From assembly GCF_016765695.1 (NCBI RefSeq), contig NZ_JAETGO010000089.1:62001-126000 (forward strand): 64,000 nt of DNA, written 5' to 3'. The notes beneath the pieces were generated by a model. The model worked only from the letters and a program-made list of their open reading frames with translations, did not search any database and was not told where the DNA came from. The position numbers and the translations under genes are program-made. This DNA is from Sporosalibacterium faouarense. Lineage in GTDB: Bacteria; Bacillota; Clostridia; Tissierellales; VENL01. Numbering within the stretch: the first letter of the stretch is position 1; every line of letters begins with the position of its first letter. Below are positions 27,796 through 50,023 of this stretch, in pieces.

Positions 27796-27854
27796 ATATT
27801 TCCTCCCTTTCTAAACTTTACAAACTACTGAAGAGTTATATAATAGTATTAAGA

Positions 27855-27927: not shown

Positions 27928-28476
27928 ATGATTTATGAAGAGAAAACTATGAAGAGTGAAAAAATATATGAGGGAAGAATAATAAACTTAAGATTAGATA
28001 CCGTAGAACTACCAGACAAAAAATATACTAAGAGAGAAATTGTTGAACATCCTGGAGCTGTAGCTATTATTCCTGTGACCGAAGATAATGAAGTGGTACT
28101 TGTTAAGCAATACAGAAAAGCTGTAGAATCAGAGTTGCTAGAAATACCAGCCGGAAAGGTAGAGATAGGTGAGAATCCTGTAACCTGTGCAGTGAGAGAA
28201 TTGAAAGAGGAAACGGGCTATTCAGCTAAGGAAATCCAGTTCTTATTTGAATTTTATACTTCTCCTGGCTTTTCCAATGAAAAATTACATCTATTTTTAG
28301 CTAAAGGATTATCAGAAGGAGAAGCAGAACCAGAAAACGATGAATATATTGAGGTGTGTAAAATAAAGCTTGAAAGTCTTGTTGAAATGATTAATAATGG
28401 AGAACTTTTAGATAGTAAAACTGTTGTTGGAGTACTCACATTAAATAATATTTTAAATAAGGAAGATGAAAAATAA
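27928..28476 (+). CDS. nudF: NUDIX hydrolase, ADP-ribose pyrophosphatase type
   Basis: A 182-residue NUDIX enzyme hydrolysing ADP-ribose or related nucleotide sugars to AMP and sugar phosphate. The NUDIX box is visible as 'GENPVTCAVRELKEETGY' with the REx2EE core (about residues 90-112). 'VRQYRKAVE'-type and 'PAGKVE' segments match the NudF subfamily. TTGGGGAGG precedes ATG. The order nudF-spoIIM-x-xerD-purine phosphorylase-dacF matches the B. subtilis yqkG (nudF)-spoIIM-fur-xerD-drm-pupG-dacF block except for the gene between spoIIM and xerD. Confidence 0.92.
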   Translation: MIYEEKTMKSEKIYEGRIINLRLDTVELPDKKYTKREIVEHPGAVAIIPVTEDNEVVLVKQYRKAVESELLEIPAGKVEIGENPVTCAVRELKEETGYSAKEIQFLFEFYTSPGFSNEKLHLFLAKGLSEGEAEPENDEYIEVCKIKLESLVEMINNGELLDSKTVVGVLTLNNILNKEDEK

Positions 28477-28494: not shown

Positions 28495-28523
28495 TAATAT
28501 TGTCCCCTTCTCTAGCATACTAT
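28495..28523 (+). promoter_or_regulatory. SigE-type promoter of spoIIM
   Basis: TAATATT (28495-28501) matches the SigE -35 consensus KMATATT exactly; after 14 bases CATACTAT (28516-28523) matches CATACAnT at all but one position. Transcription should start near 28530. SpoIIM is SigE-dependent in B. subtilis, so the assignment is biologically consistent. Confidence 0.7.
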
Positions 28524-28551
28524 TTTGTAAGAGCTTGTATAGAGAGGGGGA
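28503..28551 (+). promoter_or_regulatory. Inverted repeat covering the spoIIM ribosome site
   Basis: TCCCCTTCTCTA (28503-28514) pairs with TAGAGAGGGGGA (28540-28551) as 12 bp with one G-U. The right arm contains the spoIIM ribosome site (GAGGGGG). The left arm lies within the SigE promoter spacer, so only transcripts reading in from nudF would contain both arms. Confidence 0.7.
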
Positions 28552-28557
28552 TTATTT

Positions 28558-29193
28558 ATGTTGATTAAATTAAGCGAGCTATTTAATCGTCATTTTAGAG
28601 AGAATTTTTTTATATATTTTGTATCCATTTTATCATTAATGATTGGGGTATCTGTAGGGGCCATTACTATTAAAATTTTGAATACTAATCAAAAACATGA
28701 GCTAATCAGTTTTTTGGATTCTTTTTTTAAGGTTCTCAACGAAAGTAGTATTAGTAGCTTAGATTTACTTAAGCAATCCTTATTTAATAACCTTCAGACT
28801 GTGCTATTAATTTGGATATTAGGCATTATTGTCATTGGTATACCTGTCATAATAGGAGTACTAATTATGCGAGGATTTGTAATCGGATTTACGGTAGGTT
28901 TTTTAATTGAAGGCTTTGGTTTTAAAGGTTTTCTATTTGCTATTTTTGCAGTTTTACCTCAAAATATTTTTATAATTCCTAGTATACTTATAATCTCAGT
29001 TATTGCTTTCAAATTTTCTATTGTAATAATTAAAAATAAAATAAAGAAAGCACCTAGATACAACTTTATGAATCGAGTATCTAAGTACTCAATAAGTATC
29101 CTTATGATTTCATCCTTAATGGTAATAGGCAGTATTGTAGAAGCCTACATAACACCAATATTTATGAGATTAATCTCTTCTTATATATCTTAG
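28558..29193 (+). CDS. spoIIM: Stage II sporulation protein M
   Basis: SpoIIM is the polytopic membrane subunit of the SpoIIDMP machine that thins septal peptidoglycan and drives engulfment. The 211-residue protein has about five hydrophobic helices (around 17-38, 82-105, 110-130, 135-160 and 172-192), and a family-typical N-terminus with a basic 'NRHFRENFF' before helix one. The ribosome site GAGAGGGGGA is 6 bases before ATG and lies in an inverted repeat. A SigE-type promoter precedes it. spoIID and spoIIP are not in the window. Confidence 0.93.
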   Translation: MLIKLSELFNRHFRENFFIYFVSILSLMIGVSVGAITIKILNTNQKHELISFLDSFFKVLNESSISSLDLLKQSLFNNLQTVLLIWILGIIVIGIPVIIGVLIMRGFVIGFTVGFLIEGFGFKGFLFAIFAVLPQNIFIIPSILIISVIAFKFSIVIIKNKIKKAPRYNFMNRVSKYSISILMISSLMVIGSIVEAYITPIFMRLISSYIS

Positions 29194-29211: not shown

Positions 29212-29442
29212 TTGATTAATTTTAAAGAAGTTTTAACTATGAGCTTTAAAATTTTTATTTTACTTCTTATTATTGGAATCATATTACCACACTTAATTAA
29301 TATGTTTTTAGAGCTTTTACCTATGAGAAACACTATTGATAATCCTAAAGATAATTCAACTCTTGTGATGAAACCATTAGTAGTAAAAAACGATATAAGA
29401 TATAATTTAAGAAAGATAATATATCAGTTTATTTCTCTATAA
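29212..29442 (+). CDS. Small single-pass membrane protein, unknown
   Basis: A 76-residue protein with one hydrophobic helix (about 13-33) and a basic C-terminus. The start is TTG with a modest AGGCTGGTG site. It directly follows spoIIM by 18 bases, so it is probably in the SigE transcript. I do not recognise it; its place corresponds to fur in B. subtilis but it is not a Fur protein. A sporulation role is inferred only from position. Confidence 0.65.
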   Translation: MINFKEVLTMSFKIFILLLIIGIILPHLINMFLELLPMRNTIDNPKDNSTLVMKPLVVKNDIRYNLRKIIYQFISL

Positions 29443-29526: not shown

Positions 29527-30414
29527 ATGGAAGTAATTATTAATAAGTTCGTTGACTATCTTAAAACTGATAGGGAATTGGCAGATAACACATTAGAATC
29601 TTATAATAGAGATCTTAATCAGTTCTGTGAATATGCATCTAATAATAGCATAGATAATATTTCTAATGTGAATAAAACTCTAATCATTACATACTTGATG
29701 TATCAACAGAAAAAGGGGAAGGCAGCTTCAACAATTTCTAGAAGCTTGGCATCTTTAAGATCTTTCTTTCAATATCTATTGAATGAAGGTCTAATTTCTA
29801 AAGATCCAACCGTTAATTTACAGGCTCCAAAGCAAGAAAAGAAGCTACCTAGTATCTTAACCCCTGAAGAAGTTGAAATATTGCTAAGCCAGCCTAATCA
29901 AAATAATGCTAAGGGAGTAAGGGATAGAGCAATGCTTGAATTGCTTTATGCTGCTGGTGTTAGAGTATCTGAATTAATATCCTTGGATATTAATGATGTT
30001 AATATGGACATGGGTTATATAAACTGTTCTAAAGATAGTCAAAATGAGAGGGTTATCCCAATAGGTAAAATAGCCATAGAAATATTATCTATATACATTA
30101 ATGAATATAGAAATACTTTTATTAAAGATGATAGTGAAGTGTCTTTATTTGTTAATCATCATGGTCGAAGATTAACTAGACAGGGCTTTTGGAAAATAAT
30201 AAAATCATATACTAAAAAGGCTAATATAAACAAAAAGATAACTCCTCATACCTTAAGACATTCCTTTGCAGCTCATTTATTACAAAATGGAGCGGATTTA
30301 AAATCTGTACAAGAAATGCTAGGACATTCTGATATATCTACTACTCAGATATATACTCAGATAACTAATAATAGGATTAAAGATGTCTATAAGAAATCTC
30401 ATCCAAGAGCATAG
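29527..30414 (+). CDS. xerD: Site-specific tyrosine recombinase XerD
   Basis: XerD resolves chromosome dimers at dif with XerC. The 295-residue protein has an N-terminal SAM-like DNA-binding domain (about 1-85) and a C-terminal catalytic domain with Arg in 'GVRVSELISLD', the 'HTLRHSFAAHLL' His-x-x-Arg, 'LGHSDISTTQIYTQ' and the nucleophile Tyr. AAAGGAG precedes ATG. Its chromosomal setting and the lack of mobile-element neighbours argue for a housekeeping enzyme and not an integrase. Confidence 0.95.
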   Translation: MEVIINKFVDYLKTDRELADNTLESYNRDLNQFCEYASNNSIDNISNVNKTLIITYLMYQQKKGKAASTISRSLASLRSFFQYLLNEGLISKDPTVNLQAPKQEKKLPSILTPEEVEILLSQPNQNNAKGVRDRAMLELLYAAGVRVSELISLDINDVNMDMGYINCSKDSQNERVIPIGKIAIEILSIYINEYRNTFIKDDSEVSLFVNHHGRRLTRQGFWKIIKSYTKKANINKKITPHTLRHSFAAHLLQNGADLKSVQEMLGHSDISTTQIYTQITNNRIKDVYKKSHPRA

Positions 30415-49258: not shown

Positions 49259-50023
49259 TTGAGAATTTTAATCACTAACGATGATGGTATTAATGCAATA
49301 GGTATCAGAATGCTAGTAAATAGCTTAAAAAAACTAGGAAAGATAACTGTTGTAGCTCCAGATAGAGAAAGAAGTGCTACAGGTCATGCTATTACTATGC
49401 ACCATCCTCTCAGAATAGAAAAAGTACAATACGAAGATCCAAATGTAGAAGCATGGAGCATAAATGGAACTCCAAGTGATTGTGTTAAAATAGCAGTCGA
49501 ATCAATTTTAGAAGAAAAGCCTGATATTATTGTATCTGGAATTAATAATGGAGCTAATTTAGGGACAGATATATTATATTCAGGAACAGTTTCTGCAGCT
49601 ATAGAAGGAGCTATACATAATATACCTTCAATTGCTCTTTCAGTTTATGGTAAAAGAGGAGAGTTAATATATGAAGGAGCATCATATTATTCTTGCAAAT
49701 TAATAGAAATGGCAGTTAATAATAAATTGCCAAATAATATTGTTATGAACGTAAATTTCCCTTCCTTAAATAGTAATGATATAAAAGGTATCGAATTTAC
49801 AGAACTAGGCATTAGAAGGTATCAGAACAGTTATGAACAAAGAAAAGATCCTATGGGAAAAAACTATTACTGGTTATCAGGAAGTTTAATTGAACTAAAA
49901 AACAATGAAAATAGCGATGTAGAATGTGTAAAAAATGGCTATATTTCCGTTACTCCTCTACATTTTGATTTAACTGACTATAATTACTTAAAAGAAATGA
50001 AAAATTGGGTCACTGAAAAGTAA
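49259..50023 (+). CDS. surE: 5'-nucleotidase SurE
   Basis: A metal-dependent nucleotidase and polyphosphatase linked to stress survival. The N-terminus 'RILITNDDGINAIGI' holds the metal ligands Asp8 and Asp9, and 'NGTPSDCVKIA', 'VSGINNGANLGTDILYSGTVSAAIEG' complete the active site. The 254-residue length is typical. The start is TTG with GAGGAGAG upstream. It is transcribed away from the minus-strand gene, sharing a short divergent promoter region. Confidence 0.95.
   Translation: MRILITNDDGINAIGIRMLVNSLKKLGKITVVAPDRERSATGHAITMHHPLRIEKVQYEDPNVEAWSINGTPSDCVKIAVESILEEKPDIIVSGINNGANLGTDILYSGTVSAAIEGAIHNIPSIALSVYGKRGELIYEGASYYSCKLIEMAVNNKLPNNIVMNVNFPSLNSNDIKGIEFTELGIRRYQNSYEQRKDPMGKNYYWLSGSLIELKNNENSDVECVKNGYISVTPLHFDLTDYNYLKEMKNWVTEK

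Follow-up and report, generated by a model that had tools for sequence, protein, structure and literature searches.

The interval between nudF and spoIIM

In a 64,000-nucleotide stretch of the Sporosalibacterium faouarense genome (contig NZ_JAETGO010000089.1, positions 62,001 to 126,000; hereafter the window, in whose coordinates all positions are given), the sporulation gene spoIIM follows nudF at a distance of 81 nucleotides (nt), and this gap holds both a SigE-type promoter and an inverted repeat. nudF (27928-28476; PF00293, E 6.3e-21) encodes an ADP-ribose pyrophosphatase-type NUDIX hydrolase, is kept as the upstream neighbour of spoIIM in most relatives and is the presumed source of read-through RNA. 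spoIIM (28558-29193, with its ATG at 28558; PF01944, E 1.9e-27) encodes what we take to be the septal peptidoglycan-remodelling anchor of the SpoIID-SpoIIM-SpoIIP machine. Both genes, and all features described between nudF and xerD further downstream, lie on the plus strand. As set out below, the gap very probably constitutes a promoter-embedded translation lock, i.e. a hairpin that would hide the spoIIM ribosome site in read-through RNA and of which one arm is part of the promoter for the translated transcript.

SigE promoters combine an ATA-type -35 element with a -10 element of the form CATAnnnT about 14 nt away. The gap contains a -35-like TAATATT (28495-28501) and, after a spacer of 14 nt, the -10 element CATACTAT (28516-28523); across 45 aligned leaders, the G..ATA of the former and the CATA of the latter are invariant. 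Judged by both motifs, their spacing and their conservation, this is a SigE-type promoter, and its use by SigE would match B. subtilis, where spoIIM is SigE-dependent (PMC517825). The position of the -10 element puts the predicted transcription start at about 28530. Directly behind it stands the conserved block GCTTGTAT (28533-28540), which in many relatives provides the right side of an upper stem, as seen in the alignment and in counts of upper-stem pairs. The block is nearly invariant in the order, GGACA-containing blocks stand in for it in other clades, and it may double as a protein site and as part of the stem.

The left arm of the repeat, TCCCCTTCTCTA (28503-28514), is an anti-Shine-Dalgarno sequence that is contained entirely in the promoter spacer and precedes the predicted start. 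Its partner, TAGAGAGGGGGA (28540-28551), includes the spoIIM ribosome site AGAGAGGGGGA, and the duplex between the two is predicted at -15.4 kcal/mol. The arms are 25 nt apart and 92% complementary, with 11 Watson-Crick pairs and one G.U pair, and the predicted start falls into the hairpin loop. RNA spanning 28500-28556 is predicted to fold at -23.7 kcal/mol, as compared to a mean of -11.6 for dinucleotide shuffles (z -4.74, matched by 0/200), while the predicted SigE transcript beginning at 28530 shows no fold beyond chance (z 0.18). In these predictions, which were made without ribosomes, the ribosome site has an unpaired probability of 0.01 in the long RNA and of 0.30 in the short one. In the whole window, 55 gene starts were tested, and just those of spoIIM and spoIIIAA have a ribosome site that pairs with upstream sequence at p<=0.01. 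Searches against Rfam 15 at the gathering score returned no family for this region of the window or for eight relatives; a match to MIR815 was discarded as meaningless (19 bits against a cut-off of 63 bits).

No intrinsic terminator was found on the plus strand from nudF to xerD by a simple scan, and the repeat is followed by GATTATTTATG instead of the U-tract that such a terminator would have. The initial annotation had placed a SigE-type promoter and a 12 bp inverted repeat between nudF and spoIIM, had held that read-through RNA would hide the ribosome site and had noted that a terminator is lacking. The sequence and the predicted fold bear this out, including the position of both arms and the identity of the right arm with the ribosome site; the length of the repeat has to be amended, as the predicted helix exceeds 12 pairs and reaches into GCA and a variable upper stem.

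Conservation and covariation in the class Clostridia

To place the hairpin in a wider context, spoIIM loci were collected by whole-genome searches of relatives, of the order and of the class, as well as by scanning named genomes, of which the nearest relatives belong to the Tissierellales, for instance Thermohalobacter, Caloranaerobacter and Anaerosalibacter. A like anatomy is visible in 28 of the nearest 30 loci and passes a shuffle test at p<=0.05 in 27, with L009 being marginal in the test and clear by eye; two loci within this set, L014 and L025, carry terminators in place of the hairpin. Across the class, 119 of 202 distinct spoIIM loci (59%) reach p<=0.05 for pairing between the ribosome site and sequence upstream of it, as opposed to 13 of 230 other gene starts taken from those loci (5.7%, the chance rate). 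At least one hairpin locus occurs in 28 of the 44 families sampled, and 25 of the 44 have a median p<=0.05.

Between families, the arms diverge strongly and remain complementary nonetheless, as in CTCAGGCAT/ATGCCTGAG (L206), AAATCTTCTTATCG/CGATAAGGAGATTT (L230) and GTAATCCGCATATAT/ATATATGCCGGAGGATTAC (L217). This can be expressed by exchanging arms between loci: over all loci, without selection, a ribosome site pairs on average at -16.3 kcal/mol with its own left arm and at -11.8 kcal/mol with swapped arms (z -22.7, 0/5000 permutations). The figures are those of the all-loci run, a first run on selected loci having carried a selection bias. In the 45 aligned leaders, 84.9% of cells are paired in the named structure, and both sides of a pair have changed in 28 cells, as compared to 12.9 in shuffles. 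Both of these measures and the covariation score exceed the shuffled and the slid controls, the score lying above all 500 shuffles and every slid version. RNAalifold on a MAFFT alignment recovers only five pairs, because loop lengths vary—the distance between the arms has quartiles of 13-26 nt and a range of 0-68—and it is for this reason that arm swaps and direct pair counting were used.

The geometry of promoter and hairpin is conserved as well. Of the 115 hairpin loci whose -10 element can be recognised, 112 have a left arm that stops before the predicted start is reached; across the 115, its end lies at a median of 2 nt past the start of CATA. Predicted accessibility of the ribosome site in hairpin loci rises from 0.18 in the long RNA to 0.51 in the short RNA; control genes cut likewise change just from 0.43 to 0.51. 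In one family (L135-L140), the -10 element itself (GGGCATAACATTTA) is the left arm, a second solution of equal effect.

A probable lock in place of a terminator

Hairpins and terminators tend to exclude each other at spoIIM. A terminator was found in 2 of the 119 hairpin loci and in 13 of the 83 others (Fisher p=2.4e-4), and where the hairpin is lacking, the gap often holds a genuine intrinsic terminator (for example at L014, L025, L062, L153 and L157). The genes downstream suggest why. In the window, spoIIM is followed by an open reading frame of 76 codons with a TTG start (29212-29442), for which no Pfam match was found, and by a gene for a xerD-like tyrosine recombinase (29527-30414; PF00589, E 2.1e-48), which read-through would reach. 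Among the 63 hairpin loci with xerD, the gene lies 26-472 nt from spoIIM in 59 (median 136 nt), and no terminator precedes it in 53. The gap to xerD is wider in terminator loci (median 350 nt, p 0.02) and could accommodate a separate promoter. The hairpin is kept whether the upstream neighbour is nudF, a DUF3866-type gene or another gene, the last presumably resembling endonuclease Q by sequence type. That xerD sits close behind spoIIM without a terminator suggests that transcription must pass through, and in the simplest reading spoIIM would lie within a housekeeping transcription unit that has to stay open. A terminator would most likely be avoided because xerD, a housekeeping gene further downstream, would be silenced along with spoIIM.

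Two sporulation genes serve as controls. The spoIIIAA operon, which is under SigE control, likewise stands behind housekeeping genes in the window (spoIIIAA at 1402-2478; PF19568) and has a perfect intrinsic terminator at 1303-1342. The pairing of its ribosome site led us to consider it as a second lock, a candidate that was rejected: the left arm is the U-tract of the terminator. In 30 relatives from the order, spoIIIAA has terminators in 27 and ribosome-site hairpins in 4, and the leaders of sigG show a ribosome-site hairpin in 1 of 30 relatives from the order's genomes. The lock is thus a property of spoIIM here and not of every sporulation gene. The terminator at spoIIIAA would shield a sporulation operon from housekeeping transcription just as the hairpin at spoIIM would, but it stops the polymerase, whereas at spoIIM the polymerase would pass and the ribosome would be stopped.

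Anatomy, strong predicted structure, conservation, covariation, the anticorrelation with terminators and the absence at the control genes thus all argue, at the level of sequence, for a translation lock. From them we infer a course of events that includes read-through, SigE use, the start site, the translation block and the reason for avoiding a terminator. During growth, RNA from the nudF promoter would continue through spoIIM and probably on to xerD, read-through being likely because no terminator was found between nudF and xerD. A sigma-A-type candidate for this promoter, TTTACA-N16-TATAAT, lies 5′ of nudF (27817-27844) and matches the consensus at 11/12 positions, which by itself is no proof of function; in relatives, scores of at least 11/12 at this place are only slightly more frequent than in shuffles (8/64 versus 2/64). 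The long RNA would have both arms, its hairpin would cover the spoIIM ribosome site, and little or no SpoIIM would be made. In the sporulating mother cell, RNA polymerase with SigE would start at about 28530; the left arm, being part of the promoter, would be missing from this transcript, leaving the ribosome site open and allowing SpoIIM to be made. The lock would thereby stand in for a terminator. Whether this extends to the class is an even proposition: across the Clostridia, spoIIM may be held inside a housekeeping unit (nudF or a substitute, spoIIM, xerD) by a fast-evolving lock written into the SigE promoter, with lineages switching between lock and terminator according to the need of the downstream gene for read-through. 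In Maledivibacter halophilus (L045), a SigE-like promoter with CCCC is kept far upstream, about 100 nt of extra sequence separate it from spoIIM, and a long stem followed by TTTTTT comes before the gene, possibly a broken lock.

Other explanations of the repeat have to be weighed. As a strong GC-rich stem between two genes, it could be taken for a terminator or attenuator that belongs to nudF and halts read-through ahead of spoIIM. Yet, apart from the missing U-tract and the negative scan, the repeat is absent at loci that do have real terminators, and its right arm tracks the ribosome site, for which a terminator has no need; we consider this reading very improbable. That the repeat is a DNA operator at which a repressor or an activator, for instance SpoIIID, acts on the SigE promoter, with the complementarity to the ribosome site as a by-product, is very unlikely, even though a conserved block directly follows the predicted start and the motifs CTTGTA (40/182) and GGACA (29/182) are over-represented relative to shuffles (0.8 and 3.0, respectively). 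The arms of a protein-binding dyad would not be expected to vary so widely in their distance, and they show no fixed half-site, their sequences differing strongly by family while remaining complementary. SpoIIID-like RRACARNY is merely mildly enriched (16 versus 6.7), and a SpoIIID site at GCTTGTAT or GGACA was considered and found weakly supported. The lock would, moreover, be compatible with a protein site that overlaps the right arm.

Chance complementarity between a purine-rich ribosome site and a pyrimidine-rich spacer is easily imagined, as ribosome sites are alike, any CCTCC pairs with them somewhat and even swapped arms reach -11.8 kcal/mol. It is nevertheless scarcely credible for the window, given that no shuffle matched the fold, and for the family as a whole it is refuted by the lower rate—5.7% as opposed to 59%—at control genes and by own arms pairing better than swapped ones in all 5000 permutations. 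Finally, the long hairpin RNA might be a regulated reservoir that is opened during sporulation by a nuclease, a small RNA or an RNA-binding protein. The hairpin would offer a target for such a factor and nothing specific points to one, while the SigE promoter would already supply an open transcript and the Rfam search brought up no family; we hold this to be extremely improbable.

Several observations weigh against the translation lock itself. By the tests used, 70 of the 202 loci have neither hairpin nor terminator, although in several of these the arms can be seen by eye, and the cut-off is missed owing to the strong pairing of GC-rich shuffles. At L059 and L098, nudF lies 23-39 nt upstream of spoIIM and there is no lock. 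Two of the five covariation measures on the aligned leaders, namely pairs with a double change and pair types, did not rise above shuffles. As the loci are related, there are fewer independent events than the permutation z-scores imply, and the figures give a direction. In C. difficile, spoIIM is dispensable (PMC6221140), and its spoIIM-like gene CD1221 could be outside SigE control in that species.

Precedents and implications

The proposed lock belongs to a known kind of mechanism, with two documented precedents that the initial annotation had already named. At gene e of phage T4, which encodes lysozyme (the same applies to soc, 49 and I-TevI), the ribosome site is hidden in a long early RNA, and the DNA of the 5′ arm contains a promoter used later, so that the late RNA is open, as predicted for spoIIM; the effect there is established and about 100-fold (PMC3014915). 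T4 differs from spoIIM in using a phage late promoter rather than a sporulation sigma factor, in having no sandwich within a housekeeping operon and in that its lock is conserved in some T4-like phages only, unlike the breadth seen at spoIIM. In B. subtilis, the same logic was proposed for sigG (spoIIIG), where a hairpin in read-through RNA downstream of spoIIGA-sigE cannot form in RNA from PsigG (PMC5942855). The sigG case differs from spoIIM in the gene concerned, in its promoter, which is of the SigF/SigG type, and in its read-through, which comes from a sporulation operon.

A more distant parallel exists in the long undecoded transcript isoforms (LUTIs) of budding yeast, which, unlike the spoIIM arrangement, are eukaryotic, also repress the nearer promoter and do not involve a ribosome-site hairpin. 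In common with our proposal, they pair a 5′-extended, poorly translated isoform with a translated one from a nearer promoter (PMC8153250). No report of a lock at spoIIM was found in the openly accessible literature, subscription papers being mostly outside the search, and neither the spoIIM case nor its breadth seems to have been reported. An arrangement put forward before for a single B. subtilis gene would at spoIIM be a recurrent and deeply conserved solution. Taken together with the negative controls at other genes, spoIIIAA, sigG and the swapped arms, with left arms placed outside the predicted SigE transcript by the promoter geometry and with pairing kept by compensatory changes in close relatives and much of the class, the sequence evidence supports the interpretation first put forward in the initial annotation.

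If so, a developmental gene would be silenced in growing cells at translation and not at transcription, and the silencing arm would be part of the developmental promoter itself, so that the silencer is lost whenever the promoter is used. In transcriptomes of C. difficile, CD1221 is unchanged in sigE or sigF mutants (PMC3789822), a result that fits read-through dominating and masking the RNA level and that has other explanations too. Such a lock could be the reason that SigE control of spoIIM can go unnoticed in studies at the RNA level, as with CD1221, and it cautions that protein expression may be lower than sporulation transcriptomes suggest. The natural exchange of terminator and lock, along with the matched genes spoIIIAA and sigG, makes the rule directly testable.

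Beyond spoIIM, SigE-like patterns in the host genome are barely more frequent than reversed patterns used as a control (31 versus 21 and 71 versus 52); none of the loci fetched from this search holds a further strong nested hairpin. Elsewhere in the window, the leader of a surE-like gene at 49259 has a ribosome site complementary to an upstream stretch (p 0.013).
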